Shown here in pieces: positions 14,129 through 42,246 of a stretch of DNA of 49,594 nucleotides. Each line of letters starts with the position of its first letter. The first letter of the stretch is position 1. The notes under the pieces were generated by a model that was not told where the DNA came from, ran no database searches, and saw only the letters and a program-made list of their open reading frames with translations. The stretch spans positions 1 to 49,594 of the forward strand of contig QZJF01000007.1 in NCBI GenBank assembly GCA_003599255.1. Reading direction: 5' to 3'. The position numbers were made by a program, and so were the translations under genes. The DNA comes from a candidate division WWE3 bacterium. Lineage in GTDB: Bacteria; Patescibacteriota; WWE3; UBA101185; UBA10185.

Positions 14129-14141
14129 TAATTAGTTGTGA

Positions 14142-14179
14142 GGGCGGGGACGGTTGCCCTTGTGGCGCCGTCCCCGCCC
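14142..14179 (+). terminator. GC-rich 12-bp hairpin after the capsid gene
   Basis: GGGCGGGGACGG (14142-14153) pairs perfectly with CCGTCCCCGCCC (14168-14179) across a 14-base loop. No T-run follows, so it may be a partial terminator or, more likely, a barrier that protects the abundant capsid message from 3' decay. Confidence 0.55.
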
Positions 14180-14222
14180 CGCTGACGAAATTTCTGGAAT
14201 GCAAACAATGAGGAGAAGTGAA

Positions 14223-17380: not shown

Positions 17381-17626
17381 GTGGTGATTGTGCGCACGAG
17401 GAAGAACCAGTTGACTCTTGCGGATGTCGAAATTAAAGTACGTCGCTTTGACGACTTGAGAAAAACGCAAGCAACCTCAAGAAGTCGAGAGTTCACCCGC
17501 TACCGGAATACGGGCGACGCGTTGGATAGCCATGACTTGGTGTTTGAAGTTCCGGAACTGGTTCTTCCTATTAAAATTATTTTAATGAAATTGGCAACTA
17601 TTAAAAGAATCGGCTGGGTATTTTAA
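17381..17626 (+). CDS. questionable small protein (81 aa)
   Basis: A GTG-started frame fills the gap before the Ntn hydrolase and ends in a TAATG overlap with it. There is no ribosome site, the N-terminal half is very basic (RTRKNQ and TSRSREFTRYRN) and the C-terminal half hydrophobic. Codon choice looks less phage-like than in neighbours. It could be a real leader peptide gene, or decayed sequence. Confidence 0.4.
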   Translation: MVIVRTRKNQLTLADVEIKVRRFDDLRKTQATSRSREFTRYRNTGDALDSHDLVFEVPELVLPIKIILMKLATIKRIGWVF

Positions 17627-18174
17627 TGACTTGCATCGTTGGATTGAAGACTGACGTTGGGACTTTCATGGGTGGTGACAGCTGCGCCACTGATGGAACT
17701 GAGTTAGTAATTCGTAAGGATGCCAAGATTTTCAAACTCGGTCGAAGCATCCTCGTTGGATACTGCGGTTCGCCTCGAATGGGTCAGGTTTTAAGGTATC
17801 AACTCAAGATACCTCGAAGGCCTGTGAAGATGGATGCTCTGGACTTCATGGTCAAGTTTTTCGTTGAGAAAGTTAGATATGCTCTTCACCTCGCTGGGAT
17901 GTTGAAAGACCAATCGTCTAATGATTCTGTTGAGGGAAACGTGTTGATTGGGTATCGGGGTAGACTGTTTGTTATCGATTCGGACTTTCAAGTTGCTGAG
18001 CCTGACGCTGAATTTTACTGTATTGGAACTGGAGCGATGGTTGCTAATGGTTCATTGTTCACCACCGCTTCGTGCGGAATGTCTCCTGAGGAGAGAATCA
18101 TGCTGTCGCTTGAGGCTGCTGAGAAGTATTGTGTTGGTGTTGCGAGACCATTTAAGATTGAAGTATTGAGGTGA
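17626..18174 (+). CDS. proteasome/HslV-like Ntn hydrolase (182 aa)
   Basis: An N-terminal nucleophile hydrolase related to HslV and proteasome beta subunits. After removal of Met, the first residues are TCIVGLK, and the catalytic triad falls exactly where the family has it: Thr1, Asp17 (in GGDS) and Lys33 (in RKDAKIF). The GTG at 133-135 corresponds to the usual GSG. ATG at 17626 is decided by the need for Thr next to Met. No ATPase partner (HslU) is nearby, so it may work alone or with host HslU, perhaps processing the exported or tail proteins beside it. Confidence 0.82.
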   Translation: MTCIVGLKTDVGTFMGGDSCATDGTELVIRKDAKIFKLGRSILVGYCGSPRMGQVLRYQLKIPRRPVKMDALDFMVKFFVEKVRYALHLAGMLKDQSSNDSVEGNVLIGYRGRLFVIDSDFQVAEPDAEFYCIGTGAMVANGSLFTTASCGMSPEERIMLSLEAAEKYCVGVARPFKIEVLR

Positions 18175-18181: not shown

Positions 18182-21100
18182 ATGAAGTTACTTATTGGCT
18201 TGCTTCTAGTTTGCGCGTTACCATGCGTTTCATTTTCTGGTGTGAACGTCAACACAATCATCCTCAAGACGAGTGCAGATACGATTAAGGGAATTCCAAT
18301 TCAAGATACAATTGGTAACATTCAAGACAGATACATCTTGAAGTGGAACGCTGGGACAGGTCAGTTAATATGGGCAGTTGATTCTGCTGGGGGAGTAGGC
18401 TCTTCATGGAATTGGGAGGACTCTTCAGGTGAGGCACCTTTTTGGGTTGACAGCGCTTTGTATGCGATTTTCGCTGACAGCGCGGGAAAAATTGATACAG
18501 CTTATGCTCCGTTTCAGCAGTATGTCTCAAATCATGCCGGGGCTGGGGCTGGAGATGAAATCAAAGTTGACAGTGCTGGAAATGGTTCCACTTCCGCAGC
18601 CATGCAGTCTCCCGTGGTGGTTAAACAGGGGGTTGGAATTGACCTTGTAATCATCAACGGTGATACAGTTAGAGTTGATGTGAATCTTGCCGATGCTAAT
18701 ATTCCGAATGACATTACAATCACTGGGTTATCGGACTCAACGAAGTGGAATGATGCTCATGATTCGGTGTTTTCATGGGACAATGGTGTTTTATTTTGGA
18801 CGGACTTATTTACGGATTCTCTCCTCGAACACCCCGTCATCAAGACGTTGATTGAAGACAGTCTTGATGAGTACTTTACTTCCTCTGCAACTCAATTGGA
18901 GATTGAGGACAGCCTTGATGAGTACAGTTTTTCGACTCATTTGCACGATAGTACGTACTTTCAATTGTCAGATTTTGACAATTCGACGATTGATACTACT
19001 TCAGGTGGCGCACTTCAAATCAAGAGCAGCGGAGTTGGGTCTGCTCACATTTCTAACCAGAGCGTGTTGAGAGAAGATATTGACTCAACATTGAATGACT
19101 TGGTGGTGTCTGATTTATTCAAGTCAACCAGATTCTATTCAGACAGCGCCATGGCGACAGTGGATTATGCGAAATACTCAGTGAGTAGTAAAAGAATAGC
19201 ACGAGCAAGCTCTCCAAGTGATAATTACATTCTCAAATATGACCTTGCGACTGATTCAGTTTATTGGGAAGCAGATGCTGGTTCTGGAAGTGGTGATGAC
19301 GCCTATGCGGATTCGGTTATTGGAGATGGTGGTGATTGGGATTTGTCTTCTACATTTTACCTTCAGCAGGGAAGTAATATAGACTTCATTAAAGTTGGGG
19401 ACACGTTGAGGATTTCCTCAACTGGCGGTTCCGGTGATGACATCAAAGTCGACACTATTCTCGGTGACGGCGGAGTCTGGGATTCTCCCTCCGGTTTGGT
19501 GATTCAAGAGGGCAGTAACATCGTCTTTAACAAGGTTGGAAGCGATTCACTGAGAATTGGATTCGTTGATGTGTTTTTGAATGAAGCGGATTTTGATGAT
19601 TCGATTAACGAGCACCCGGCGATTAAAAACTTGATTGAAGACAGTCTGAATGAGTACTTTACTTCCTCTGCAACTCAATTGGAGATTGAGGACAGCCTTG
19701 ATGAGTACTCCACAACCGCAGCCATGCAATTGGAAATTGAGGACTCCCTCGATGAGTATGTTTTTAGTGTTGACTTTTCGAAGGTGACGGACGACACCTC
19801 ATCTTGGAAATTCGCTGCAGATTCCGTTGCTGCATGGGACAACGGCGCTCTTGGAACAGTGAACATTGCTAATCAGAGTTTGACGAAGAATGATTTGGAT
19901 ACTACTGAAAGTGATTTTGTTTTTGATGACGCTTATCGTGGGACTTCGGGGACTTCTGAGAGTTTGTACGTCACTGATAGATTCGTTAAAATTCTAATTG
20001 AAGACAGTCTGAATGAGTATTCCACGACTGCGGCGATGCAATTAGAGATTGAAGACTCCCTCGATGAATATACTCTCACCAGTGCTTTTAATCTGGTTAC
20101 TGACGATACGGTTTCTTGGAAAGCGGCAACGGATACGGTCGCCGCTTGGGATAATGGTGCGCTGGGAACAGCAAATATCACTAATCAGAGTCTTACCACT
20201 GCCGACCTTGACACGACTTCAAGCAATTTTGTCTTTGATGATGCTTACCGCGGGACTTCCGCGACCGCCGATAGTCTATATGCGACAGAATGGTTTGTCA
20301 AGATTCAGATTGAGGACAGTCTGAATGAGTATCCTACAATTACGGCGATGCAGGCGGAAATAGAAGATTCCCTTGATGAATATTCAACCACCGCCGCTAT
20401 GCAGTTAGAAATTGAGGATTCGCTTGATGAATACACTCTCTTGACGGACTTTGCTAAGGTTACTGATGACACTATTGCGTGGCAAGCGGCTAAAGACTCC
20501 GTTGCGGCTTGGGATAATATGGGATATCCTATAGGAAACTTCATCGACACCACTACGCTGGATACAATACAGAACGCGCACGAAGCGGTAATTGCCGACA
20601 GTGCCGTAATTGCGGCAGACGTGGATACTACCGGAACGAGCAAGATAACGACCTACATCGACAATCACGCCGCAGTGGTGAATAGCGCAGAAGACTTGGA
20701 GATTATCGGCAATGTGACGATTGACGGTAGCCTCTTTCAGGTGGGACACGGTTTTGAATACGACACTTCGGTTGGCTATTATTCCCGACCGCCCGACACC
20801 TTCTTGCAGATATTGACCTACTATGATTACCCAGGAAGCGGCGATTCGATGAAACAGACGCACCCCTCAATAATAACTTTCCCCGGCAGGTATGGCGTCA
20901 ACAATGGCGATAGCATTGACCCGACTACCTGGGTGGCTGATACAGGAAGTTATAAATGGATTTACTGGATGGTGACGACTCCGCTCCGAACCGATACGGC
21001 GGAAAATCCAACCTTGTATGTCAGCAATGACCCCTCTAATCCTAACGGTTGGATACGACCATACTACGTTGACCAGTTCAATAATGTCGTTAATTGTCCC

Positions 21101-22321
21101 GAACCGATTATCTTAGCCCCCACGGTGGGGGCATCAGGTGGACACCTATCCGACGGGCATATTGGGCGGCTTCGCAATGGAGATATGTGCATCCTTTTCA
21201 GGGCGACAAATTCCTCCAACTATGACAAGTTGATGACGATTACCTCGCGGAATGGATTGGTCTGGGATACGACGGCAGACACCGCCTCCCTGACTGCATA
21301 TACCGCGACGACCGCACCTAAGTATATGTCGCCCGCCTGGGTAATTGGCTACGGTGATAATAACTATTGGGTATGGTGGGTAGATGAAAGGAATGGGGCA
21401 AGTGTGTCTGACAGTACTGCCGTCAAGTTTTTAAAAGTTACTCGATTGGACTCTACCTGGAATCTCGCCGATACGGTTGTCTGTCAATTCACGGGCAATA
21501 CTTTCGGCTGGGATTCCCTGAAGATATGGCATATATCGGTGAAGCAGCACGGCTCACAACTGCATATGTGGGCGGCTCTGGCGCACGATTCTGCTACCAC
21601 CCAAAACGGCGGCGACCTCTGGCACGCCACCAGCGTTGACGGTCGTAATTGGAAATTTGACGCTAAGCCCTTCATCAGCAATCAGGGCGGCGCGCCCAAT
21701 AGAGATTCGCTGATGATTTACCGGACGGACTGCGAATGGTTCGAGGATGGACGGGGCGGCGGCTGGCAGTGCGTTTATGGCGGGCTTAACTCTCTTGGGG
21801 CGCATCATATTTTCTATCGCAAGGTCTATAACGGCTCATATATCAATGTGCCGGTAGAGGTAGCAGGCTTAGACCATACGCCAGAGGACTCGATTATGTT
21901 ACTCCTGCCGACACAGGCTAAAGCGGGGGACACCACGCGGCTGTTTGTCGATACCTCTTATGACGCTTCGGGTGACGATTGCTACGATACTTTCTCCGTT
22001 TTCATCAATGTCCCGCAAGCGATGTACATCGATTCTTTCAACGCTGTGCTGGCTACGACCGGTTCGCTCGACTCAATTGAGTTCTGGGGAAGAAAGAACG
22101 GGACGACATTGAATATTAATGATTCGCTCTATCAGACTTATACAACGGCATTTACTACAACCACAGCAACCAAGTTGACCATACCACTGAATAATATTAT
22201 AAAAACAACTAAGTGGTTTCGACCGGGGGAAAGGGTTACGGCGATATTCTATACCAAGCACGTTGACGCCAACGACAAATTGACTGGCTACTCCGCCGAA
22301 TTTACGGGGTATCCCAAGTGA
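18182..22321 (+). CDS. Sec-exported fibre-like protein with C-terminal propeller (1379 aa)
   Basis: A signal peptide (KLLIGLLLVCALPCVSFS) precedes a fibre-type region with the common phage motif YILKWNAGTGQLIWAVD. Residues about 220-780 hold three roughly 115-residue repeats (IEDSLDEY, then VAAWDNGALG, ANQSL, FVFDDAYRGTS). The C-terminal part has a propeller-like region (about 840-1230, with WHATSVDGRNW) and a beta-sandwich. The first 250 residues are nearly the same as those of 23997-28433. From about 20.1 kb the codon style changes, so the C-terminal module looks acquired. Fibre architecture suggests receptor or glycan binding, but the signal peptide implies export. Confidence 0.78.
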   Translation: MKLLIGLLLVCALPCVSFSGVNVNTIILKTSADTIKGIPIQDTIGNIQDRYILKWNAGTGQLIWAVDSAGGVGSSWNWEDSSGEAPFWVDSALYAIFADSAGKIDTAYAPFQQYVSNHAGAGAGDEIKVDSAGNGSTSAAMQSPVVVKQGVGIDLVIINGDTVRVDVNLADANIPNDITITGLSDSTKWNDAHDSVFSWDNGVLFWTDLFTDSLLEHPVIKTLIEDSLDEYFTSSATQLEIEDSLDEYSFSTHLHDSTYFQLSDFDNSTIDTTSGGALQIKSSGVGSAHISNQSVLREDIDSTLNDLVVSDLFKSTRFYSDSAMATVDYAKYSVSSKRIARASSPSDNYILKYDLATDSVYWEADAGSGSGDDAYADSVIGDGGDWDLSSTFYLQQGSNIDFIKVGDTLRISSTGGSGDDIKVDTILGDGGVWDSPSGLVIQEGSNIVFNKVGSDSLRIGFVDVFLNEADFDDSINEHPAIKNLIEDSLNEYFTSSATQLEIEDSLDEYSTTAAMQLEIEDSLDEYVFSVDFSKVTDDTSSWKFAADSVAAWDNGALGTVNIANQSLTKNDLDTTESDFVFDDAYRGTSGTSESLYVTDRFVKILIEDSLNEYSTTAAMQLEIEDSLDEYTLTSAFNLVTDDTVSWKAATDTVAAWDNGALGTANITNQSLTTADLDTTSSNFVFDDAYRGTSATADSLYATEWFVKIQIEDSLNEYPTITAMQAEIEDSLDEYSTTAAMQLEIEDSLDEYTLLTDFAKVTDDTIAWQAAKDSVAAWDNMGYPIGNFIDTTTLDTIQNAHEAVIADSAVIAADVDTTGTSKITTYIDNHAAVVNSAEDLEIIGNVTIDGSLFQVGHGFEYDTSVGYYSRPPDTFLQILTYYDYPGSGDSMKQTHPSIITFPGRYGVNNGDSIDPTTWVADTGSYKWIYWMVTTPLRTDTAENPTLYVSNDPSNPNGWIRPYYVDQFNNVVNCPEPIILAPTVGASGGHLSDGHIGRLRNGDMCILFRATNSSNYDKLMTITSRNGLVWDTTADTASLTAYTATTAPKYMSPAWVIGYGDNNYWVWWVDERNGASVSDSTAVKFLKVTRLDSTWNLADTVVCQFTGNTFGWDSLKIWHISVKQHGSQLHMWAALAHDSATTQNGGDLWHATSVDGRNWKFDAKPFISNQGGAPNRDSLMIYRTDCEWFEDGRGGGWQCVYGGLNSLGAHHIFYRKVYNGSYINVPVEVAGLDHTPEDSIMLLLPTQAKAGDTTRLFVDTSYDASGDDCYDTFSVFINVPQAMYIDSFNAVLATTGSLDSIEFWGRKNGTTLNINDSLYQTYTTAFTTTTATKLTIPLNNIIKTTKWFRPGERVTAIFYTKHVDANDKLTGYSAEFTGYPK
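18702..18762 (+). repeat. 61-bp DNA repeat, copy 1 (fibre N-termini)
   Basis: These 61 bases are identical to 24517-24577. They lie in the N-terminal segments of the two fibre genes and show that this part was duplicated recently or is kept alike by recombination. Confidence 0.9.
18850..18924 (+). repeat. 75-bp intragenic repeat, copy 1
   Basis: Nearly identical (two differences by eye) to 19633-19707 in the same gene. Both encode IEDSL-x-EYFTSSATQLEIEDSLDEY. Further diverged copies continue to about 20450. Such repeats allow in-frame length change and recombination. Confidence 0.85.
19633..19707 (+). repeat. 75-bp intragenic repeat, copy 2
   Basis: Second copy of the 18850-18924 sequence. 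It begins the main repeat array of the fibre-like protein. Confidence 0.85.
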
Positions 22322-23655
22322 AAAAGTGGCTCATTATATTAGTGCTTTTGGCGGCATCCGCGCAGGGAGGAGAGTTCAAGGTTGGCGATTCTGTTCATCA
22401 CTCTTCTTTCGCTCAGTACCGATATGCGCCACACATGAGTATGACGTCCAGCGGCGGCGTTATCTGGGTTTACTGTGTCGATAAAACTACAGATTCAATG
22501 CGTGTCTATACTACTTTAGATATGGGGACAACTCTCGATACAACCAATACCTTTCCCTCCAGCGGTTCTCTTATAAGCCCATACACCGGAGCCTATTCTT
22601 ACGGAGAATCAACTTTCGTCTCAACGGCGCGAGCATCAGCGGATTATTTTTCTATCGCAAAATTTTCGGGCGCATTATATACGCGCACACTGGTGGACAC
22701 CGTTGCCTATACTGGGTATAGTGGCCCCGCCGGAACGCCGGTCTTTGGGTTTAGTTTATACGGTGCATCGGGGGGACAAATGCTGGTAGCCCACCGAGAA
22801 GAAACGGGAACAACTGACAGTATGAGGGTGAATTATTCTTCGGGTGCGTTATCCCAAACAACATCTTGGACTTCCAGTGATAGTAGTGATGCCGCAATGG
22901 GGGGGCAGTATGTTGATTTTTACTGGAATGGAGGGACTTACGGCGGCATTCTTGCTTATGTATTCAGCGAAAATGACCTCGACTGGATAGATGTTGCTAA
23001 TGGTTTTGATACTTTAAGCACCGCCTTCCTATCTTATAGTCCCGGCTCATTTCAGACTACCTATTGGAATTTCGTACAGAAGAAAGATTCTTTTGGACTG
23101 GTGGCGTTTCAGCAGTCAGCAACGGCGGGAACGGATAATCTTTATTCGATGAATTTCAAAGTCTCTGGCGTGGGGGGTGGTTCGGGAACGGTGGTGCGAA
23201 TTGATTCGGCGTTGATAGAATCGCACGCAGGGATAGCCAGCGGATTTTCCTGTAATCCTTATTATTCGGTAGTGGGGACTAACGGTGACACGGTCAGGCT
23301 CTATTATCTCTATTGGGCGGATACGACCAATGCTGATTCGGCGGATATTGTCTATAAGCAATCGACTGATGGCGGCGTGACCTGGGGTTCTCGAACAACC
23401 TATGTAGCGGCGGTCAATACTCGCCAGCGGTGGGCGTTACACGCTCCGCCTCGAATATATAAACGCGGCAATTATTTGCTTCACGGGGTCAGTTGGCTTG
23501 ATAGCGTGGCGACAAGGGATACACTCTGGACTTATCTTGACAGTACCTATATTCCGCCTTCAGGGCCGACTTTCCTCACCGGCGTTCATCACAGCAAGGC
23601 GGGAATGATGCCGGCGCACAGTAAGAGTTATATCGGAACAATGCACAGGAAATGA
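22318..23655 (+). CDS. Sec-exported beta-propeller protein with Asp-box (445 aa)
   Basis: A GTG start overlaps the upstream stop (GTGA). The signal peptide (KKWLIILVLLAASA) precedes a sialidase-like beta-propeller: an Asp-box STDGGVTW near residue 350 and propeller strands throughout. It is a clear paralogue of 28430-29806 (GGILA, GFDTL, LVAFQQSATAGTDNL versus LVYQSGATSGTDTL). No sialidase catalytic residues can be assigned, so glycan binding is as likely as hydrolysis. Codon style differs from the paralogue, in line with import. Confidence 0.75.
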   Translation: MKKWLIILVLLAASAQGGEFKVGDSVHHSSFAQYRYAPHMSMTSSGGVIWVYCVDKTTDSMRVYTTLDMGTTLDTTNTFPSSGSLISPYTGAYSYGESTFVSTARASADYFSIAKFSGALYTRTLVDTVAYTGYSGPAGTPVFGFSLYGASGGQMLVAHREETGTTDSMRVNYSSGALSQTTSWTSSDSSDAAMGGQYVDFYWNGGTYGGILAYVFSENDLDWIDVANGFDTLSTAFLSYSPGSFQTTYWNFVQKKDSFGLVAFQQSATAGTDNLYSMNFKVSGVGGGSGTVVRIDSALIESHAGIASGFSCNPYYSVVGTNGDTVRLYYLYWADTTNADSADIVYKQSTDGGVTWGSRTTYVAAVNTRQRWALHAPPRIYKRGNYLLHGVSWLDSVATRDTLWTYLDSTYIPPSGPTFLTGVHHSKAGMMPAHSKSYIGTMHRK

Positions 23656-23662
23656 GGAGAAG

Positions 23663-23983
23663 ATGAAAACGCTATTGATTCTTTTGGTTCTGACAGTGCC
23701 GGTGATGGGAGGGGTAGCAGAAGATTCTCTGTATAATCACACAACACTCTTGCATTCAATTTCAGAGATTATTGACACTTGCAAATACTATCCGGCTTTT
23801 ACGCCCAAGTATGAAATCGTCAAGGAAATTTATAATAAGCCCGAACCGGACAGCGTGATTGTGAAAATGGACTATACGACTTGGAAGAAATTCTTAGAAT
23901 GGATACAGCCCCAGTCTATGTCAGTGACAATATGGAATGTAGTTGCGGATACTGTATATTGGGATACCTTGCAAAATTGGTGA
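23663..23983 (+). CDS. small exported protein (106 aa)
   Basis: A signal peptide (KTLLILLVLTVPVMG) precedes a short soluble domain with Pro/Asp-rich segments and a helical stretch (YTTWKKFLEWIQ). GAGGAGAAG precedes the ATG. It shares the atypical codon style of the two upstream genes and ends the probable imported segment. Function unknown; it may be an accessory to the fibre-plus-propeller pair. Confidence 0.68.
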   Translation: MKTLLILLVLTVPVMGGVAEDSLYNHTTLLHSISEIIDTCKYYPAFTPKYEIVKEIYNKPEPDSVIVKMDYTTWKKFLEWIQPQSMSVTIWNVVADTVYWDTLQNW

Positions 23984-23996
23984 TAAAGAGGAAAAA

Positions 23997-26900
23997 ATGA
24001 AAAAGTTCTTATGTGTTTTCACTTTGCTTTTTATTACTTGTTCTTTGAATGCAGCCATCGTTGTCAATCGTCTCGTGATTGAAACCAGCGCGGACAGTAT
24101 TCGTGGTATTTACGTTCAAGACACGACCGGGAATATTCAAAACAGGTTTGTCTTGAAGTGGAACGCCGGCACGAGTCAATTGGTGTGGGCAGTTGATTCT
24201 GCTGGTGGAGTTGGTTCATCTTGGAACTGGGAGGATTCTTCGGGTGAGCCTCCTTTTTGGGTTGACAGTGCTTTGTATGCTCTTCTTGCTGACAGCACTC
24301 TGAAAATCGACACTACTTACGCCCCTCTTCAACAATACGTTTCAAATCACGCTGGTGCTGGTGCGGGAGATGAAATAAAGGTTGACAGTGCTGGGAGTGG
24401 CTCTACTTCCATTGCTATGCAATCTCCTGTAGTGATTAAACAGGGAACGGGGATTGACTTCGTAATCATCAACGGTGATACAGTTAGAGTTGATGTTAGC
24501 ATTGTGGATATCAATGTTCCGAATGACATTACAATCACTGGGTTATCGGACTCAACGAAGTGGAATGATGCTCATGACTCTTCGTTGACTTGGGATAACG
24601 GTGCTTTATTGTGGTCGTATTTATTTGATGATTCGCTTGGAAATCACAGAATTTCTTGGGATGCTGCGGTTGAATCAGTTTTGGTGTGGGATAACGGAAT
24701 TTTGCTTCGAGGAGAGTGGTTTGATGATTCGTTAAACAACCATATTCAACTTGGAAACTATATTGATTCAACCACGCTCGATACAATTCAAAACTCATAT
24801 CAAGCAGTTGCTGCTTTGAGGTCTGATTCAACTTCACGAAGTTGGTTGGGTTTGACCACGTTTTTAACGAGTGACTTTGACAATGTTGGAATTGACACTA
24901 CTTCTGGTGGGGTGTTGAGATTGAAGGATGAAGGCATAACGACTGACAAGATTTTGAATCAAACTATTCAAAGAGACGACATAGATTCAACTTTAAACGA
25001 CATAGTTGTTTCAGATTTGTATAAGGGTTTGAGAACGTCGGTGGATTCTGGAGTTGCGACGAAATACTACGCCCGTTACAATGTCGGAAACAAAGCGATT
25101 TCAAGAGTAACTCCAACTGACAACTTCATCCTGAAGTACGACCAATCAGTTGACTCAGTGATGTGGGAGGCTGATGCTGGGGCTGGTTCTGGAGACAATG
25201 CTGTGGTGGACACCATTTTGGGCGATGGTGGAACATGGGACTTGCCCGCTACGTTTTTCATTCAGGAGGGAACTGGAATTGCCTTTAACAAAATTGGAAC
25301 AGATACTTTGAGGGTTTCAATTACTGGTTCAGGCGGTGGAGATGACATCAAAGTTGACACCATCCTGGGAGATGGAGGAGTTTACGATGCCCCTAGTGGG
25401 GTTGTTTTTCAAGAGGGAACAGGAATTGTCTTGAATGTTTTGTCTTCTGACACTGTCAGAATTGGAGTACTTAGAGATTACTTACTATCAAGTGGAGACA
25501 CGGCGTCTGCTTCAAATAAAGTTTGGGACTTTGAGGATGGAGTTATTTCCGACCTTAACAAAATTGAAGACTTGGATTCCATCATTCTTAACAATGGAGA
25601 TACCATTACTGAATTTTCAGGAACTGGGTTAACTATTTCAAGTGGTATTTTGTCATCTGTTCTCGGGACGAACGTTACTGACGCTGAAGTCGATGATGAT
25701 ATCACAATCAATCAAGCGAGTAGCGCAGTCAACGCTTTGAATTCTGATTCATTGGGTCACAAATTGTACATGACTGGTGATACACTAAAATCTATTTCGG
25801 AAGTTCTTTACATTGCAAGTGCCTCGAATGACTTGCAATTGCAAAATGACACAATTTTGATTGGGGAAGAGAGTGGTGACAACGATGTTTACTTGATTGT
25901 TTTGAATACTGAGGATACTGCGTGGATTAAACTTGACGCGGCAACTGCAAAACTTCAATTCAAGAATGAAAGTGGTTCGTTTGCTAATTTTGGGGCGTAT
26001 TCAGATTCAATCAGTAGGTCGTGGGGACGAGGTGTTTGGTTTGAATTGTCGGACTTTGACAATGTGACGATTGACACTGGCACCTCCGGTGCATTGAGAG
26101 TGAAGGATGGAGGCATTACTGGCGCGAAGATTTTTGACCAAACAGTGCAGCGTGATGACATGGACTCAACGAGTAATGACGTAGTTTTCAGTGGAGTTTA
26201 CAGAGGAACGAGGGAAACCGCCGAATCTCTTTTAACGACTGACCGTTGGGTTCGCTATGTAGTTGGAGATAGCTTGAACAACTACAGCTTGATTACTCAC
26301 AACCACATCTCGGAGTACTTCGCCTTGAGTGATTTTGATAATGTCAGCATTGACACTTCAGCGGGCGGTTCCCTTCAATTGAAGGATGGTGGTGTAACAA
26401 ATACTAAGATTCTTGACCAAACAATTGCTCGAGATGATATTGACTCCACTTCAAATGATTTGGTCGTGAGCGGGATATACCGTGGGACTCGTGAAATCGC
26501 TGACAGTTTGTTGCCCACCATAAACTGGGTGAACTTATTGCTCGAGGACAGCCTTGACGAGTATAGTGTGACGAATCACAACCACGATGCGTCGTACTTT
26601 GCTCGAGATGAATTCGATAACTCAACGATTGACACCACGGCGACTGGGGCGTTGGAGGTCAAGGCGTCGGGGATTACAACTAGTCAAATTCTCAATCAAA
26701 CCATCACGATGAGCGACATTGACACGACAAGCAACAACTTCGTCTTTGATGATGCTTACAGGGTAACATCAAACATTGCGGAGAGCCTACTCGCGACAGT
26801 TAATTACGTTAATGAGAAAGTTATCTCCACGGGTTTAATGGACACGCTAAACTCCGGGGACAGTTTGATTTACGCCCACTTGGCAGATACTTTCTTGTTG

Positions 26901-28433
26901 GTTGTTAACTCCGGCGACACCACCAAGGTCTTGCCGAGGGACAACGCTGAGTTGATTTTGGGGTCGGAAGGGTTGACGACTGCTGACAGTTTTAGGGTGC
27001 TCAATCGATTATACTTCGGTAAAGAGGGATTGACATTTTTGGATTCTTCAGACGTTGATTCTCTTGTGAATCTTGGAGGTGAGATTGACAGTACTGAAAT
27101 CATCGACCAAACTGTTAAAAGGAATGACATTGATTCAACTTACAACGATTTGGTTGTTTCAAATTTGTTTAAAGTCACAAGGTCATTTTCTGACAGCGCT
27201 ATGGCGACGAGAGATTTTGCGAAGTTCAATATTTCGAGTAAGCCAGTCTCAAGGGCAGCAATCACTGACGACTATGTATTGAAATACGACGCCGCGCTCG
27301 ATAGTTTGATGTGGGAGGCAGATGTTGGTGCCGGTTCAGGGGATGACGTTAAATTCGATTCAACGTTTGGAGTCTATGGCGTGTTCGATATGACGAATCC
27401 TGTGATTCAAGGTGGTTCATTCATTGAGATAATTGCAGTTGGGACTGACACAGGCAGAATCAATGTGGATACATCAGGAACTGACGCAATAGCCTCAAAG
27501 ACTTGGTCAAGGGACAGCCTTGTTCAGTCATTGACCGCTGGAAATGGTGTTGATGTTAGTGCTTCTTACGGTAACGTTACTGCAAGTGTTGACTTGGATT
27601 ATGGTTTGACTTTCGATGGGGGTCAGTTGGAGGTCGATACTACCACGGATGTTCCGTCAATGAATATTTTTAAGAAAAGAACTGAGGCTTATTTCGACAG
27701 TTTGACCACCAGAGACAGTCTCATTTTGAGAACTACTACTGCCGGCGTGGACACGATGATTTCGCTCTTCTTAAAGGGAGATACTGTGTTCTTGAATCCG
27801 AATGACAACAATTTATTTTACTTTGGGAAGAGAGGAGGAATGAATTTACTCGACTCCGTTCGAATTCTGAAGCAGCTTTTCTTCGGGAACGCTGGGACAA
27901 CAGTGGTTGATTCGCTCAAGGCAGACTCAATCGTGACTGGTAAGGGTAGATTCTCCCTTGATGAAGTGGTGTTTCCACTCAACATGGTGTTTGGCGCTGA
28001 CCGTGCAGTTGAAGATTCGGTTAGGTTGACTCAGCCGGTTCGAAAGGCAAACAGCGACACTGCCGTGTGGTTGCTTGACTCATGTTACGCAGTCGTAACG
28101 ACTTCAAATGACACTTTTGATGTTTCTGGTCTTGCACCTGTAGCTATGAATGTGGACAGTTTGATTTATTTGTATCAAGCAACTGGTCAGATTGACAGTA
28201 TTGCTGCTTATAGTTGGGACATCACAGATGGGTTCGAATTGACTGACTCGTTGTACTATTACGATGGAACTGACCGAAACTCTGTTAATTGGACTCGGGT
28301 TGCTCTTTATATAAATGAGTCATTCAGCGCAGGTCAAGAGTTGAGGGTGAGGTTTTTCACTTCGTTTGCTTCAGGCAGTAACAAGACTGTCAGAATTGCC
28401 TACATGAAAGCAAAAGGGAGGCCTAAGCAATGA
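23997..28433 (+). CDS. Sec-exported fibre-like protein (1478 aa)
   Basis: A signal peptide (KKFLCVFTLLFITCSLNA) is followed by the same N-terminal module as 18182-22321, then a long series of fibre repeats (DFDNV-x-IDT, GGSLQLKDGGVT, KILDQTIARDDIDST) and a C-terminal beta-sandwich with a basic tail (YMKAKGRPKQ). The repeat pattern is that of phage tail fibres that trimerise. The longer frame from 23943 is rejected: AGAGGAAAA fits the ATG at 23997. Codon style is that of the main phage. Location is uncertain: virion, host surface or secreted. Confidence 0.78.
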   Translation: MKKFLCVFTLLFITCSLNAAIVVNRLVIETSADSIRGIYVQDTTGNIQNRFVLKWNAGTSQLVWAVDSAGGVGSSWNWEDSSGEPPFWVDSALYALLADSTLKIDTTYAPLQQYVSNHAGAGAGDEIKVDSAGSGSTSIAMQSPVVIKQGTGIDFVIINGDTVRVDVSIVDINVPNDITITGLSDSTKWNDAHDSSLTWDNGALLWSYLFDDSLGNHRISWDAAVESVLVWDNGILLRGEWFDDSLNNHIQLGNYIDSTTLDTIQNSYQAVAALRSDSTSRSWLGLTTFLTSDFDNVGIDTTSGGVLRLKDEGITTDKILNQTIQRDDIDSTLNDIVVSDLYKGLRTSVDSGVATKYYARYNVGNKAISRVTPTDNFILKYDQSVDSVMWEADAGAGSGDNAVVDTILGDGGTWDLPATFFIQEGTGIAFNKIGTDTLRVSITGSGGGDDIKVDTILGDGGVYDAPSGVVFQEGTGIVLNVLSSDTVRIGVLRDYLLSSGDTASASNKVWDFEDGVISDLNKIEDLDSIILNNGDTITEFSGTGLTISSGILSSVLGTNVTDAEVDDDITINQASSAVNALNSDSLGHKLYMTGDTLKSISEVLYIASASNDLQLQNDTILIGEESGDNDVYLIVLNTEDTAWIKLDAATAKLQFKNESGSFANFGAYSDSISRSWGRGVWFELSDFDNVTIDTGTSGALRVKDGGITGAKIFDQTVQRDDMDSTSNDVVFSGVYRGTRETAESLLTTDRWVRYVVGDSLNNYSLITHNHISEYFALSDFDNVSIDTSAGGSLQLKDGGVTNTKILDQTIARDDIDSTSNDLVVSGIYRGTREIADSLLPTINWVNLLLEDSLDEYSVTNHNHDASYFARDEFDNSTIDTTATGALEVKASGITTSQILNQTITMSDIDTTSNNFVFDDAYRVTSNIAESLLATVNYVNEKVISTGLMDTLNSGDSLIYAHLADTFLLVVNSGDTTKVLPRDNAELILGSEGLTTADSFRVLNRLYFGKEGLTFLDSSDVDSLVNLGGEIDSTEIIDQTVKRNDIDSTYNDLVVSNLFKVTRSFSDSAMATRDFAKFNISSKPVSRAAITDDYVLKYDAALDSLMWEADVGAGSGDDVKFDSTFGVYGVFDMTNPVIQGGSFIEIIAVGTDTGRINVDTSGTDAIASKTWSRDSLVQSLTAGNGVDVSASYGNVTASVDLDYGLTFDGGQLEVDTTTDVPSMNIFKKRTEAYFDSLTTRDSLILRTTTAGVDTMISLFLKGDTVFLNPNDNNLFYFGKRGGMNLLDSVRILKQLFFGNAGTTVVDSLKADSIVTGKGRFSLDEVVFPLNMVFGADRAVEDSVRLTQPVRKANSDTAVWLLDSCYAVVTTSNDTFDVSGLAPVAMNVDSLIYLYQATGQIDSIAAYSWDITDGFELTDSLYYYDGTDRNSVNWTRVALYINESFSAGQELRVRFFTSFASGSNKTVRIAYMKAKGRPKQ
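24517..24577 (+). repeat. 61-bp DNA repeat, copy 2
   Basis: Identical to 18702-18762; part of the duplicated N-terminal module of the two fibre genes. Confidence 0.9.
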
Positions 28434-29806
28434 AGTTTGCATTGCTGATTGTACTTGTAGCGTTAATTGTTATTCCATCCGTTTCAGAGGCAATCGCTAC
28501 TCGTTACGACCGGACGCAAACTGGACTCGATTCACTTGAGAGTTCATCCATTGCAGGTGGGTTTAGCCGAGGTTGGCATCGAGTGTTTTTAACGAAGAGT
28601 GGTGATGTGTTGATTAACGGCTACATGCGCTTCAATTTTGGGCAGAGTTTCTACAAGAGTTCGGATTGGGGTACGACTTGGATATATGATACTATTACTG
28701 GGCTCACTGCAACAACGGCGGTTCAGAATTTTTCATGGTTCTTTGATGATTCCGGGTGGGCTTTGAATGCTGCAAGTGCTTCCGGAGTGCCATGGACAAT
28801 TAGACGATATGATAGAACTGTTGCTGGGATTTTGGATACAGTCACGACCACTGGTGGAGCAAGTTCTGCTACGAGAAGACCTATGCTGACAGTTGTTGGT
28901 GGGAAGTTGATGGTCGTTGTCAATAATGAATCCACCCCAGATGATTCTGCTTTGGTAACCATTACTACTGGTCAGCACTCACAGGATGCTACTTGGTATC
29001 GTGCCTTTAAGAGCAAGGAATTTACTGGCGGCGGTCTGAAATTGCCTCATCAATGGGGTGGAGGAAGCGGCGGAGGGATTCTTGCTACTAACATGGTTCA
29101 GTCCGATTTTTACTGGGTTGACTCGCTTTACGGGTTTGACACTCTTCACTTAGCATTCAAACCCGGAAACGACCCTTATCTAAGGGATTGTTGGGTCATG
29201 CCTTTGTTGGAGAGTACAGGAGTGCTTGTGTATCAATCAGGTGCTACTTCAGGAACTGACACCTTAGTCAGTTTCAATTACGTAGTGCAGAATACTGGTG
29301 ATGGCACTGGCGGAAATGTTTCTATTACGCTATCGAACAGACAGGTTGTGGAAACTCATCAAGGAATTAAGAATGGTAATCAGGCCAACGTGACTGGAGG
29401 GACTTTCATGCCAGGTGGCGACTCTGCTGTATGTTTTTACAAGTACTGGCCTGATACGACAGTTGACAGCCCGAGCATTGTTGGCAAGGTGTTTAACGGT
29501 AGTTCGTGGGGAAGTTCATTTTACGTTTCTTATGGAAAGATGAGGTCAACTCTTGATTCGACAATTGAATTCATGCAGGCGAGCCCGTATTTGTGGAAGA
29601 TTGGAGATTACTATCGGTATGTGATTGCCCATACTGATAGTTGTGCAGGGGATACCTCAAAGGGAACCGTTTTTCTCGGAACGATTTATGCTCCGAGCGG
29701 CGAACTTCCAGCAGTGATTGAGCACTCAGGAACGATTCATAACAAGACTGATGGGGCTAAGATTCATGACGCATCTTCAGTTCGAGTGAGACACGGGGAA
29801 GATTAA
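28430..29806 (+). CDS. Sec-exported beta-propeller protein, paralogue of 22318-23655 (458 aa)
   Basis: A signal peptide (KFALLIVLVALIVIPSVSEA) precedes a propeller with an Asp-box SSDWGTTW near residue 76. It aligns with the product of 22318-23655 along most of its length and sits in the same position relative to a fibre gene. Together the two gene pairs form a repeated fibre-plus-propeller cassette. It overlaps the upstream stop (ATGA). Substrate or ligand unknown. Confidence 0.75.
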   Translation: MKFALLIVLVALIVIPSVSEAIATRYDRTQTGLDSLESSSIAGGFSRGWHRVFLTKSGDVLINGYMRFNFGQSFYKSSDWGTTWIYDTITGLTATTAVQNFSWFFDDSGWALNAASASGVPWTIRRYDRTVAGILDTVTTTGGASSATRRPMLTVVGGKLMVVVNNESTPDDSALVTITTGQHSQDATWYRAFKSKEFTGGGLKLPHQWGGGSGGGILATNMVQSDFYWVDSLYGFDTLHLAFKPGNDPYLRDCWVMPLLESTGVLVYQSGATSGTDTLVSFNYVVQNTGDGTGGNVSITLSNRQVVETHQGIKNGNQANVTGGTFMPGGDSAVCFYKYWPDTTVDSPSIVGKVFNGSSWGSSFYVSYGKMRSTLDSTIEFMQASPYLWKIGDYYRYVIAHTDSCAGDTSKGTVFLGTIYAPSGELPAVIEHSGTIHNKTDGAKIHDASSVRVRHGED

Positions 29807-31062
29807 TGAAAATACTTTTGAGAGTAATCATTGTTTTAGGGTTGACGTTCATTGCAAGAAGCGCTTATACGACTGACCCAGTCGTGACGGTGAGTCATTA
29901 TGCAATGGACAGTTCAACTTCATCGGTTTTCAATCCTTTGTCAATTCCGAGATGGCAGATTTGCCCACTCGCTGATTCAGGTCACGTGGTGTTCTACAAC
30001 GCTGGCTACTTGAACAAGGCGGTGACCCTGACTTTCGGACTCGATAGTTCTCAACCGTGGGTTAGTTATCATACAGGAGCGTTGTCGGACTTAGACCACG
30101 CTCACTTGAGTGTTCACAACGACACGGTGATTGTTAGTCGTTCTAACAACAGCACGCTTCAGGCTTACACTCCCATTGGAGATTCACTCACTCAACTTTG
30201 GACTTGGACTTGGCCTTATTCTGAGGCAGATGTTTACGTGCCCTCAATTCAAAGGTTACCCAATTCAGACACTTGTATTGCAATAAGTCGTGGTTTGGAT
30301 GATGCTCATGCCATTGCTTGGTGGATAAGTTCGAATAAGGGGCAATCATTCGTTGAGCAGGGTTACATGGTTAACAGAATTGGAACTGGCAGGTGTCGAA
30401 TTGGACTGATGGTCTACGGACAGACGGTGGCAGCTGTAGTTGACACAGGCGATTACGCAATTGAATGGTGGACTTTTAATCGTTCATCATTGACCTGGGT
30501 TCGTGAGGGTAAAATCTTTAACAGGTCGATGTATCGTGGAATGGCTGGAAATGTTGCAGAAGATTCCATTCAGTTCTTAATTGGAACTCGGGATTTGTCC
30601 ACCGGTGACTCGATAATTTGGGCATGGAAGAATCAAGGTGATGTGTCATTCGTTGAGGGAACGGGGTTCAAGACGTCAAATGTTGGACAATCACTTCCAC
30701 CTTACACTGCCTTGACTTACATTGAGAGTTCAAGGAGATTAGTTCTGTTTTACAGTGACAATGATTCAACTGCTAATGACGATTACTGGACTGTTTTTTG
30801 TCGGTGGATGAAGATGGACGACAAGACTTGGAGCGCCCCAACGAGAGTTTCAAGGGGTACTGATGCTTGGAAGGTAGTGACTGCTATGCGAGTTCCTGAG
30901 TCTCACGGGGACGTCGCTTACGCCATGATTCCGTTTGACACTTTGATTGGAGCAACTACCTACCACCTTGCTGGCGTCGTTAAGGTTGAATTTGACGACC
31001 CGGACGTTAGTACGACTCGGGGAAATTTGGGAAAAATCAAATTGCGAAAGGGGAAGTTGTGA
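29806..31062 (+). CDS. Sec-exported propeller-like protein (418 aa)
   Basis: A signal peptide (KILLRVIIVLGLTFIARSA) is followed by repeated beta blades (ISSNKGQSF near residue 175, TFNRSSLTWVREG, WMKMDDKTWSAP) resembling degenerate Asp-box or BNR propellers. The C-terminus is basic (GKIKLRKGKL). It starts in a TAATG overlap. Likely a third exported propeller, more distant from the two paralogues. Confidence 0.7.
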   Translation: MKILLRVIIVLGLTFIARSAYTTDPVVTVSHYAMDSSTSSVFNPLSIPRWQICPLADSGHVVFYNAGYLNKAVTLTFGLDSSQPWVSYHTGALSDLDHAHLSVHNDTVIVSRSNNSTLQAYTPIGDSLTQLWTWTWPYSEADVYVPSIQRLPNSDTCIAISRGLDDAHAIAWWISSNKGQSFVEQGYMVNRIGTGRCRIGLMVYGQTVAAVVDTGDYAIEWWTFNRSSLTWVREGKIFNRSMYRGMAGNVAEDSIQFLIGTRDLSTGDSIIWAWKNQGDVSFVEGTGFKTSNVGQSLPPYTALTYIESSRRLVLFYSDNDSTANDDYWTVFCRWMKMDDKTWSAPTRVSRGTDAWKVVTAMRVPESHGDVAYAMIPFDTLIGATTYHLAGVVKVEFDDPDVSTTRGNLGKIKLRKGKL

Positions 31063-31241
31063 AGAAGAGAGCGGTCAATATTAGACTTCTGATTTGGGTT
31101 TTGAAAACAACAGCCATTGATACAATCGGAGCTTTTCTTGCGTTCTTTATTGGTATCTATCAAGTATTGAAATGGACTGGTATTGTTTTATGGGAGTTGC
31201 TTTTGTTGTTGTTTGGTTTGACTGAGAGGGAGAGAAGATGA
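31059..31241 (+). CDS. small membrane protein (60 aa)
   Basis: A GTG start overlaps the upstream stop (GTGA). A basic N-terminus is followed by two close hydrophobic stretches (TIGAFLAFFIGIY and WTGIVLWELLLLLFGL). It is the only non-secreted protein in the exported block and could assist export or anchoring. Not recognised. Confidence 0.62.
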   Translation: MKKRAVNIRLLIWVLKTTAIDTIGAFLAFFIGIYQVLKWTGIVLWELLLLLFGLTERERR

Positions 31242-33202
31242 AGTTCGTAATAGTTGCAGTTTCATTAATCATTCTTTCAGCTCCAGTTTTTTCAGCGATA
31301 ATCACTTTATCTCAAAGCAGTGGTTGGCCGTACACAATCACGAATGACTTCAATTATGACACTGTGGTTCTTGATGGCAACATTCACGTAGATGATGACG
31401 CCATCAAGTTCAGTTCTGGGACGCATGATGTGCTGTTTGACCTTGATGAAGACACGATTTACTTCGGTGAAAATGGTTACGTGTACGGTCGAATTTCGAG
31501 TGTCGGTGCATCTGCTTTCGACTTCACTGGTAATCCTCAAGTTTACAACATCGCCGTGCGTGGAGGAGCGCTGGTGCATAATATTTCGGGTTCATTCACC
31601 ACCGAACTCCACTCAGTTGGCGCCATTCGAGTTGCGATGGCCTACAACGTCACGTTTGAGAGCACGTACGTTGAAGTTCGGGGTGGTAATGCGCGAGCGG
31701 TTTGGTCAACGGTTGGTTTATCCACCAGTTTTCCTTACAACTGGGAATTTCGGGAGTGTGTATTCAACAACTTGAGTTTGAATTACTTCGACCGGCAGTA
31801 CTGGGATGAGCACACCACTTTGAATTTTGGTGGGTGCAATTACCGCGGTGGGGTATCGGGATTGGAGGGTTTTGACCATCACGTTAAAATCGTCAATTGT
31901 TCTCTCGTCACGGCGCCTCACGCTCAAATTCACGTCAATGGGGACAGCCTTGTTGCCGTTATTGACAGCAATTGGATGCTCACTGATGCTTGGAATGACC
32001 ACCCGTCTTATACTTTCGCCGAGTGCTTTGCCGCCGCCTTGCGCTCTGGTGTTGACGGTGACAACATTGTCAAATTCAGGTGGAACATAATTCGGAGCGG
32101 TAATAACTATGGTGGCGGACGTGGGCTGATGATTACGGGGCTCGATGGTCACAAATTTACTGAAGATAGTGGAATTTTTATAGGGTACAACAATGCCAAA
32201 ACTCATCAGGGATTTTCTGGTTACGATAATAATGGAATGTCAACTTATTGGAGAGAGCACTGGCAGAACATAATAAGTCGTGGAAATTATTGGGAGAATT
32301 GGGGAGACACATCTAACAATGAAAATCTTGGGGATTCTGCTGGGTCATTTTCGTTGGCGTTGAGAATAGTTGGCGCAGGGAGCGACAACGAGCCTTACGG
32401 TCTTCACATTGTTGGGGATACGTGCGTTTCATACATAGTTGGCGATGCCAAGAATGCGCAGAACTTTGGGTGGGGAGGCGGCGCTATCACTGCAGCGGCA
32501 ATGGTGTTTGAGGAGTTTCAGCCTTATGGGTCGTCTGAGCCAATCGCTGGTGTTACTGTTGAATCATGCATTTTAATCAGCAACGGAATTTTCTTGTCGA
32601 ACGCAGGATACAACGGGACTGGTGGTAAGTACCTGAATTTTGAAAACTTGAAATTTCAGAATTACGGTGGTGCGGACGTTGTTGCGCCATACTGGACTGT
32701 GTGGTTTCAATCACCCAGCAATCCAGCTGACCAGAGGCACTCTCACCACAATTACATCTGGAATCCAATTTATGAGAATCAGGTTTCAGACACTCACTGG
32801 GCGCCTGACTACGACGCCAACGATTCAATATCTATGGGTTTGGGAACAACTATAACAGTTCAAGTAAACGGAAACAATGGGTTGCCAGTCTCCGGTGCAA
32901 ACTTGTGGGTAATCAACAATTACGATGATACGATTTTGAGCACGATAACCAATACCACTGGTCGAGCGACAGTTGACGCCGTGTATTGGTGGGAAGGCAA
33001 CAATTTTTATCCAGTAGATTCCACTGAATTCAATCCATTTACAATAAAAGCATTGAAAGATTCTGATAGTACTGAATCGAATCCAACAGTTGGATGGAAC
33101 GTTAAAAGCTTCACTTTGACTTTGTCAGGAACTGAGGGGTCTAACCCGAGATTCAGAAAGAAAATAATGAGCGGAAAGTTTGTAACGGGGAAGATAAAAT
33201 GA
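31238..33202 (+). CDS. Sec-exported beta-helix protein, tailspike-like (654 aa)
   Basis: A signal peptide (KFVIVAVSLIILSAPVFSA) precedes a right-handed parallel beta-helix region (about residues 30-500) with repeated rungs such as HVKIVNCSLV, VAVIDSNW and NIVKFRWNIIRSG, the pattern of pectate-lyase-like and phage tailspike proteins. Residues about 540-640 form a carboxypeptidase-regulatory-like beta-sandwich (GLPVSGANLWV). The tail is basic. Glycan binding or lyase activity is plausible; catalytic residues are not identifiable. Confidence 0.74.
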   Translation: MKFVIVAVSLIILSAPVFSAIITLSQSSGWPYTITNDFNYDTVVLDGNIHVDDDAIKFSSGTHDVLFDLDEDTIYFGENGYVYGRISSVGASAFDFTGNPQVYNIAVRGGALVHNISGSFTTELHSVGAIRVAMAYNVTFESTYVEVRGGNARAVWSTVGLSTSFPYNWEFRECVFNNLSLNYFDRQYWDEHTTLNFGGCNYRGGVSGLEGFDHHVKIVNCSLVTAPHAQIHVNGDSLVAVIDSNWMLTDAWNDHPSYTFAECFAAALRSGVDGDNIVKFRWNIIRSGNNYGGGRGLMITGLDGHKFTEDSGIFIGYNNAKTHQGFSGYDNNGMSTYWREHWQNIISRGNYWENWGDTSNNENLGDSAGSFSLALRIVGAGSDNEPYGLHIVGDTCVSYIVGDAKNAQNFGWGGGAITAAAMVFEEFQPYGSSEPIAGVTVESCILISNGIFLSNAGYNGTGGKYLNFENLKFQNYGGADVVAPYWTVWFQSPSNPADQRHSHHNYIWNPIYENQVSDTHWAPDYDANDSISMGLGTTITVQVNGNNGLPVSGANLWVINNYDDTILSTITNTTGRATVDAVYWWEGNNFYPVDSTEFNPFTIKALKDSDSTESNPTVGWNVKSFTLTLSGTEGSNPRFRKKIMSGKFVTGKIK

Positions 33203-34434
33203 AAACTAAAGTTGTCCAATTGCTCATAATCGTAATTTTAACGAGTTCATTGTTGATTGCTGCTAACAGAACTGTCCCCGTTGGGGGTTGTTACACGCAG
33301 AATTATTTAAGTGCCGTAGCAGATTCAGTGAAAGTTGTCGCTACTGATTCTGCGTCTCTTAATGACACTATTTCGTTGGCTTGGACTTCATCTTGCTACA
33401 GTGGAAAAATCACTGTTGATGCTGATGGGGATTACGTCAGTTTGGAGTACTTGATTTATGACGATGATACTGTTTTTCAATCATCTGAAACAATATATTT
33501 TTCTACAACAGTGGACGACGATTCTTCTTTGCTGGACTTTGTGAGGAATTCAGGCACATGGACTTCGGCTGAAGCGGACTCTGTTTTGAGTGCGGTTCGG
33601 GATGATGTGATGGCTAAGAAAATTTGGAACATCGCCTTCTCAACAGGATTTACAGCAGGGTCAATGGGTGATAGTTTGACGAATTGGACGTATGTGCAAG
33701 GTCAGGCCGCTGGCATTACTGCAGACGCAATTGTGGAGGCTTGGGCAAATAGGTATCTATCAGATTTCGCTGATGCTGCGGATTTTGATTCGACATTTGC
33801 GGGAGCCCTTCATCGAGCGGGTCAAGTATCTCTTCGTGGCAACAGAACTCTTACTCTGACTTTTTATGATAGCGTTAGTTCAGAGGTCATTCCCTTTACT
33901 TCAGCGACGATTAAAAATTACAACGGAACTGCTAACTTATGGTATTTCAAGACGGACGCCAGCGGAGTTGAGGCAACGACCCTTCCAGCGGATTCTTACA
34001 AGGTGTATCCTTATCAATATCAAGTCACGTTCCCGTCAAGTTACTACACTTTTAACATTGACTCTGGAAACGTAAATGACACTATCAACGCCTCGCCCCT
34101 CGCATCGTCACCCTACGACCCGCAGCATGCCACAATCACGGCGCGTGGTTACATCTTTAGGCCAAACTTAGTTAATAAAAACGGTGTACTTGTTCGCGCA
34201 AGAATAAGCAAGGAGAATGTGAAATTGACCCGTGGTAATATTCCTATCTCCCCGATTTGGGTGACAGACACGACAGATACTAACGGTTACTTCGAATTCA
34301 ATTTGTATGTCTCTGACTCTCTCACACCGAGAACTCCTTGGACGATTGAGGCAATCGACAGTTTAGAGAAACCCTTCAAAACCACGACAGTTTACACGCC
34401 GGTAACAAGTCCTTATGACATTGAATGGAGGTAA
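33199..34434 (+). CDS. Sec-exported multi-domain beta protein (411 aa)
   Basis: A signal peptide (QLLIIVILTSSLLIA, cleavage before ANR) is followed by a beta domain, a helical middle (SAEADSVLSAVRDDV; ADAIVEAWANRYLSD) and two carboxypeptidase-regulatory-like modules (KTDASGVEATTLPADSYKV; TDTNGYFEFNLYVS). Architecture resembles adaptor or stalk proteins of surface structures. It is the last exported gene before the tail module and overlaps the upstream stop. Confidence 0.7.
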   Translation: MKTKVVQLLIIVILTSSLLIAANRTVPVGGCYTQNYLSAVADSVKVVATDSASLNDTISLAWTSSCYSGKITVDADGDYVSLEYLIYDDDTVFQSSETIYFSTTVDDDSSLLDFVRNSGTWTSAEADSVLSAVRDDVMAKKIWNIAFSTGFTAGSMGDSLTNWTYVQGQAAGITADAIVEAWANRYLSDFADAADFDSTFAGALHRAGQVSLRGNRTLTLTFYDSVSSEVIPFTSATIKNYNGTANLWYFKTDASGVEATTLPADSYKVYPYQYQVTFPSSYYTFNIDSGNVNDTINASPLASSPYDPQHATITARGYIFRPNLVNKNGVLVRARISKENVKLTRGNIPISPIWVTDTTDTNGYFEFNLYVSDSLTPRTPWTIEAIDSLEKPFKTTTVYTPVTSPYDIEWR

Positions 34435-34440: not shown

Positions 34441-35283
34441 ATGGTGACATATAACACAACTCGATATGACTTGCTGACAACTCCGTTAAATGTGAGGAAG
34501 ATGTCCGAGTTGATTGTGTCAAAAGTCGAGGATGCTGCGAGTGAGGAACTCGAGACAATCTCCGATGAAGAGGTTGAACTTCACATTGAGGACGCCTCGG
34601 GAATGGTTCTTGGGGCACTTGAGGGATATTACGGTGGCGTTAGTGCGCTGCAAGTCACTAATCCTTACGCGAGCAAGCCTTTCGCTTTGCCGACCAACCA
34701 GAGCAAGGTGAAGTTGTTGAAGGTGGGAGTATCCTCGACGGCCGTGACTGAGGTTTGGACTTTGAAGATGGCTCCGCCTGCTGACAGCACGGAGTACATT
34801 CGGTGGACGATTGAGGGGTCGGTGAGTGGCGAGCAGGGCAGTGGTGCAATTTTGGTTACGAATCCTGTGGACTTTAACTCGACAAATGAGGCCATTCAAA
34901 TTTTGACGACTTACTGGCAGAGAAATGATGATGTTTCTAAGGAGGGTGACAAAATTCGGTTCGCAACCTTCAAGGTTAAGCCAATAATTGCCTTCATAAC
35001 TGCAATGCTTGCCGCAGGCACTCTCCTCGATGCTAAGTTGAGCGAAGTTTCACCGAACTCATCGAGCATCGGAAAGAGGTTGACCGACCGGGCGTTTGAG
35101 TGGCTTGAGAAGTTGGCAAATCCTGAGAAGTCCGGAGTTACTTTGGCGAGCGTTCCGACGGTGGACTTCACCTTGATAATGATAAGTATGAATCCGTCGG
35201 ATTCTCTTGGAGAAGATGCTACGAAGTACGAATCGATTTCGGAAGAACGAGAACGGTTGGATATAATGGGATTTGATTCGTGA
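34441..35283 (+). CDS. head-tail connector protein, Mu gp36-like (280 aa)
   Basis: The N-terminal 60 residues (ISDEEVELHIEDASGMVLGALEGYY) resemble the adaptor helix region of Mu gp36/DUF1320-type proteins, which join the portal to the tail. The C-terminal part is longer than in that family and of unknown fold. It is followed by a gpG-like gene, as in Mu-type head-tail modules. No portal gene is visible, so partners are missing from the window. Confidence 0.62.
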   Translation: MVTYNTTRYDLLTTPLNVRKMSELIVSKVEDAASEELETISDEEVELHIEDASGMVLGALEGYYGGVSALQVTNPYASKPFALPTNQSKVKLLKVGVSSTAVTEVWTLKMAPPADSTEYIRWTIEGSVSGEQGSGAILVTNPVDFNSTNEAIQILTTYWQRNDDVSKEGDKIRFATFKVKPIIAFITAMLAAGTLLDAKLSEVSPNSSSIGKRLTDRAFEWLEKLANPEKSGVTLASVPTVDFTLIMISMNPSDSLGEDATKYESISEERERLDIMGFDS

Positions 35284-35305
35284 GGAAGAAGTGTCCGGAA
35301 TTAAT

Positions 35306-35926: not shown

Positions 35927-35934
35927 GGGTCGCA

Positions 35935-36756: not shown

Positions 36757-36763
36757 TGAAGAA

Positions 36764-37714: not shown

Positions 37715-37735
37715 CATTTTTGGAGGTTTTGAAAC

Positions 37736-42245: not shown

Positions 42246-42246
42246 T

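Follow-up and report, generated by a model that had tools for sequence, protein, structure and literature searches.

The stretch of DNA analysed here (contig QZJF01000007.1, 49,594 nucleotides; hereafter the window) belongs to a tailed dsDNA phage and corresponds to IMG/VR contig IMGVR_UViG_3300007351_000014, from a deep-mine metagenome of SURF/Homestake (IMG 3300007351; PMC6121073, PMC8478452). The genes and features considered are listed in Table 1.

Table 1. Features of the window. Export is predicted from N-terminal signals; ^ marks the predicted cleavage site.
Feature	Position	Strand	Remarks
Exported five-gene cluster	7526..10046	+	lipoproteins 7526, 8334, 8628, 9360; secreted 7789
ChaB/protease-scaffold gene	10622
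Major capsid protein	12986..14128	+	PF25209/Mu gpT
Strong RNA hairpin separating capsid gene from 14223	14141..14180	+	z -6.6; no T-run
Exported protein immediately 3' of capsid gene	14223..15155	+	310 aa
Endolysin, opens gap-free operon	15760..16233	+	phrog_465
Outer-membrane beta-barrel candidate	16824..17375	+	Sec signal
HslV/proteasome-like protein	17626..18174	+	no signal
Exported long fibre 1	18182..22321	+	1379 aa; signal MKLLIGLLLVCALPCVSFS^G; mature N-terminal domain conserved, fibre-type repeats; C-terminal part propeller-like, with an Asp-box-like motif
Exported Asp-box propeller candidate 1	22318..23655	+	445 aa; paralog of 28430
Small exported protein	23663..23983	+	106 aa
Exported long fibre 2	23997..28433	+	1478 aa; paralog of 18182
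Exported Asp-box propeller candidate 2	28430..29806	+	458 aa; paralog of 22318
Exported protein, one Asp-box-like motif, basic C-terminus	29806..31062	+	418 aa
Small hydrophobic protein inside block	31059..31241	+	60 aa
Exported protein	31238..33202	+	654 aa; weak CarboxypepD_reg match
Exported protein without family match	33199..34434	+	411 aa
Neck, tail tube, tape measure and tail-tip genes	34441..48254	+	no signals
gpG-like neck protein	35273
Tail tube	37954
Tape measure	39960

Three further features of the region were noted. The gene for the HslV/proteasome-like protein adjoins the block of exported proteins. The hairpin directly 3' of the capsid gene has a GC-rich stem of 12 bp and lies in a region of -41 kcal/mol. 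In the upstream cluster, 7789, 8628 and 9360 have a C-terminal domain in common that ends in LLTPSDTLYPxPEYKR or similar, reaches 62% identity over 48 aa in one pair and is without a family match.

According to the initial annotation, seven large proteins encoded between 18182 and 34434 start with Sec signal peptides, and about 15 gene products appear to leave the cytoplasm. All seven open reading frames exist, and each N-terminus opens with an n-region containing lysine or arginine, continues with a hydrophobic core free of charges and leads up to a cleavage site of the small-x-small type, with a Shine-Dalgarno (SD) sequence at proper spacing for most of them; a predicted n-h-c signal with cleavage site is thus placed at the translation start. 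Fibre 2 starts at the ATG at 23997 (SD GAGG) and not at the TTG at 23943, and the open reading frame at 14154 has its true start at the ATG at 14223, preceded by GAGGAG. The count was likewise borne out, with 15 products carrying Sec or lipoprotein signals: the seven large proteins, 14223, 23663, the barrel candidate at 16824 and the five at 7.5-10 kb. Among these, the small secreted protein at 23663 is an addition, having had no separate entry before.

Signals were scored with a heuristic rule that asks for charge in the n-region, a hydrophobic core without charges, cleavage at a small-x-small site or a lipobox, and a proper start; it passes 7 of 8 textbook signal peptides. Eight of the 18 genes of at least 250 aa in the window were positive (14223, 18182, 22318, 23997, 28430, 29806, 31238 and 33199), as against 7 of 530 distinct large open reading frames from 129 phage and prophage loci around the same capsid-protein family (binomial 4e-11, Fisher 1e-9), a comparison limited by the control loci being 20 kb long and not always including fibre genes. 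The same rule gave no positives in lambda, B40-8, P2559Y, FCL-2 and 50 kb of phi38:1, and one flag each in RM378 and crAss001, both membrane proteins on inspection. Published phage genomes contain 0-2 signal peptides each (PMC5723332, PMC4615864). Type IX secretion cargo was rejected, since none of the proteins matched a C-terminal sorting domain in NCBIfam. A basic C-terminal tail was also discarded as a common sorting motif: four of the eight have one, yet 22% of controls reach +3.

The genes of the block follow the order fibre, propeller, (small protein), fibre, propeller, and we read the two fibre and propeller gene pairs as the product of a duplication. The fibres at 18182 and 23997 are 45% identical over 820 aa and have a C-terminal domain in common, and the propeller candidates at 22318 and 28430 are 31% identical over 341 aa (E 4e-23). 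A repeat of the type NQT..R.DIDST.ND.VV...YRGT occurs in eight copies. The fibres combine a repeat shaft with a conserved N-terminal domain and a variable distal part. No match to known fibre families was found in Pfam, PHROG or INPHARED (of the two fibre paralogs, 18182 was the one scanned against PHROGs), and the exported proteins gave nothing above cut-off in Pfam, PHROGs, NCBIfam, PADLOC or PDB. Asp-box motifs are present in 18182, 22318, 28430 and 29806, and in the propeller candidates they occur at about 20-45 times the shuffled rate, one per protein; a BNR_2 match remained under the cut-off (E 0.033), and the model of the 28430/22318 pair had a pLDDT of 34. The protein at 31238, proposed to be a tailspike-like beta-helix, had an AlphaFold model with a pLDDT of 31 and no Pfam or PDB match above cut-off. 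The virion-adhesin folds claimed initially are thus supported in part. The fibre repeats and the paralogy are clear; the propellers are represented by single Asp-boxes and the beta-helix was not confirmed, and we use 'propeller' and 'beta-helix' as suggestions.

The two fibres allow selection on the signals to be assessed. Over the first 20 codons they agree in 3 of 20 residues and 33% of bases, whereas the amino-acid identity of the adjoining mature domain is about 80-90% (codons 46-200), and over codons 21-200 dN is 0.13 and dS 1.29 (dN/dS about 0.1). When either fibre signal was left to drift neutrally to the observed distance, a signal was left in 0.4-0.7% of stop-free sequences. Since both fibres keep a signal in spite of near-random divergence, it is a class of sequence that is conserved and not one sequence. 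This is the pattern expected for a working signal peptide, and selection appears to act on the signals. For five of the eight signal-positive large genes, no start with a plausible SD occurs within 80 codons past the signal, so that for these five a signal-free form is not expected to arise by reinitiation.

From the endolysin at 15760 up to 37714 the gaps between genes measure at most 13 bases, with overlaps of 1 or 4 bases at most genes. The codon usage of the exported block matches that of the tail genes best (r 0.89), and promoter and terminator matches within it are not above shuffles. Judged by its position, the block is most likely co-expressed with the lysis and tail genes; independent (moron-type) expression is unsupported, there being no excess of promoters or terminators and no gaps to the endolysin or tail genes. 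As read from the sequence, the export signals on these proteins of virion architecture are real, selected and set in a late lysis and tail operon.

The assignment of the contig deserves comment. Tetranucleotide frequencies of the window correlate with those of the assigned MAG at 0.29-0.45, as opposed to 0.85-0.92 among segments of the window itself, and the bin is therefore probably wrong. The assigned bin is a 1.1 Mb genome, its phylum relatives measuring 0.7-1.0 Mb. The barrel, the lipoproteins and cleavage sites of the A-Q type make a diderm host probable, perhaps a member of the FCB group. Genes for terminase, portal or replication were not recognised on the contig, which we consequently take to be incomplete although its two ends (1-17 and 49578-49594) are identical over 17 bases, and terminase profile searches of the bin gave nothing. 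The identical ends may mean that a repeat flanks a partial genome, or point to something more unusual.

Close relatives were found neither in IMG/VR nor in INPHARED or GTDB. When the capsid, propeller and tape-measure proteins were each scanned against IMG/VR, the window itself was all that was recovered; in INPHARED the fibres, propeller, 31238, 33199, barrel and 44541 were without matches, and fibre-repeat profiles gave nothing in GTDB. A fibre-repeat profile search recovered three distant loci. In the unrelated contractile phage G287 (IMGVR_UViG_3300028026_000005, 98.6 kb, with a sheath-like protein at 75729 as judged by eye), the 552-aa fibre P0001 in the baseplate region starts with the signal MKRIVLLLALPYIAFA^Q and has the SDNYILKYD repeat in common with the window. 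G287 also has a second cluster of genes for exported products (17506-20925; loci L016/L017), upstream of its baseplate and tail genes. In locus L013 the fibre at 9851-10474 has the same short repeat without a signal; there, the homolog of the central tail fibre J (7055-9172) has a 23-aa Sec-signal-like extension before the conserved start of the family, and the signal-like stretch is followed by a second hydrophobic segment. An exported block is absent from the nearest capsid relative (locus L034; 29%, E 4e-35), which encodes an O-antigen ligase/polymerase-like (Wzy_C) membrane protein (11958-14063) between the capsid and tail genes.

Virion proteins with Sec signals, pIII and pVIII, are made by filamentous phages, inoviruses being assembled in the inner membrane, unlike the tailed dsDNA phage of the window. 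With their long repeats, a conserved N-terminal domain, distal parts that vary and paired shaft and tip genes, the fibres resemble phage tail fibres and receptor-binding proteins, but such fibres are normally without a signal peptide. Single exported phage surface proteins have precedents. Lom of lambda is an exported outer-membrane protein encoded among tail-fibre genes (PMC12309495); like the locus described here, Lom/Bor involve a late-region gene for a Sec-exported outer-membrane barrel, but comprise one or two small proteins as compared with at least eight large exported proteins of fibre and propeller type. Llp of T5 blocks the receptor FhuA from the periplasm, and Llp and Cor prevent phages from adsorbing again to cells already infected or to debris (PMC9586334). 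These too are phage-encoded envelope proteins, although Llp is a small lipoprotein acting in the periplasm and the proteins of the window are large fibres and propeller candidates whose function is putative. PblB of Streptococcus, a prophage tail adhesin with a signal peptide predicted in S. pneumoniae NTUH-P15 (PMC4508584), is likewise a tail protein of phage origin that the host cell displays, but a single Gram-positive protein in contrast to the duplicated multi-gene set found here in a phage whose host is probably diderm.

The explanation that we favour, tentatively, is that the block encodes surface proteins made late and exported before lysis, which would mask receptors or act as decoys or adhesins. 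The products of the 14.2-34.4 kb block would be made late in the infected cell alongside the lysis and tail proteins and would cross the inner membrane via Sec, the barrel and lipoproteins being directed to the outer membrane. Once exported, the duplicated fibre and propeller pairs and the other adhesin-type proteins would bind host-surface glycans or receptors. Such binding could mask or occupy receptors, and on debris and nearby cells the proteins could serve as decoys, sparing progeny from re-adsorption at lysis; alternatively, the infected cell might be made adhesive. The sequence shows the signals and their selection, the operon, the duplication and the lack of signal-free copies in the window; when the proteins are made, where they reside, what they bind and what they are for is inferred. 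In favour of this explanation are the SD-supported signals, their enrichment over controls and their retention despite saturation in the paralogs, the gap-free operon with endolysin and tail genes and its tail-like codon usage, the barrel and lipoproteins also being envelope-targeted with no T9SS domain matched in NCBIfam, and the precedents of Lom, Llp and PblB. That the post-capsid slot of L034 holds another surface-modifying product adds weakly, as a single case. Against the favoured explanation stand the virion-fibre look of the proteins and the conserved mature N-terminal domain, which resembles a dock for a common partner that could be the virion. Furthermore, a pure decoy model predicts signal-free versions of the tips, and no signal-free copies of the exported proteins were found within the window.

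The lack of such copies slightly favours the idea that the proteins are virion appendages, whose subunits, once exported, would fold and form trimers beyond the inner membrane and be mounted on particles by the conserved mature N-terminal domain at or after lysis. We regard this as possible but less probable than surface decoys. The strong constraint on the N-terminal domain next to diverging distal parts is as in virion fibres, fibre and propeller modules were duplicated, the genes lie between head and tail genes and are coupled to both, and the long baseplate-region fibre of the unrelated G287 also has a perfect Sec signal. However, tailed virions assemble in the cytoplasm, we know of no dsDNA tailed phage that adds fibres outside, and 44541 and 35923 could provide signal-free receptor-binding parts. 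The fuller version, in which receptor-binding fibres and propellers alike would be Sec-exported, matured outside and mounted at or after lysis, virions thus being completed outside the cytoplasm and G287 using the same trick, has a slightly smaller but still sizeable chance. Less likely than these two leading readings are four others. That the products are secreted glycan-active enzymes or binders, stripping host capsule or biofilm from outside for progeny exit, would agree with the four Asp-box proteins, the marginal BNR_2 match and production together with the lysis genes, but no catalytic family was matched, the propeller fold is a candidate one and two fibres of 1400 residues would be left unexplained, which makes it improbable. 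Somewhat similarly improbable are adhesins of lysogenic conversion or host origin, expressed independently of the lytic cycle: the sample community is rich in Zixibacteria and exported fibre-like proteins may be common in FCB bacteria, but the block has no excess of promoter or terminator matches and no gaps to the endolysin and tail genes, and no integrase or repressor was recognised. Virion membrane-interaction or docking peptides that mimic signals, as the double hydrophobic start of the J homolog might suggest, are very unlikely; n-region charge, cleavage site and length are signal-peptide-like in every case, the paralogs keep the class of signal and not its sequence, and the class extends to 15 products including lipoproteins and the barrel. 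Finally, a bacterial surface-protein locus joined to a phage during assembly would be in line with the apparently wrong bin and the poor fit to the MAG, yet we reject such a chimera as hardly credible, given the uniform tetranucleotides of the window, the tail-like codon usage and the overlapping or abutting start and stop codons across both borders.

The initial annotation had proposed a candidate for an undescribed system, and this stands in part: literature searches gave no counterpart block of exported phage proteins on this scale, and any of the roles it listed (surface adhesins, secreted decoys, superinfection exclusion or virion parts added outside) may apply. Identity with a known anti-phage defence family was rejected, no PADLOC model being matched. 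The feature is real, selected and unusual, a variant of phage-encoded exported surface proteins for which we found no published counterpart. If the products are exported surface decoys, they would form the largest phage-encoded set for surface remodelling known to us and provide a new way to exclude superinfection or avoid self-adsorption. Should they instead be virion parts, they would break the rule that the cytoplasm is where tailed virions are completed. Under either reading, a signal peptide on a fibre would be an inexpensive marker for searches of viromes.
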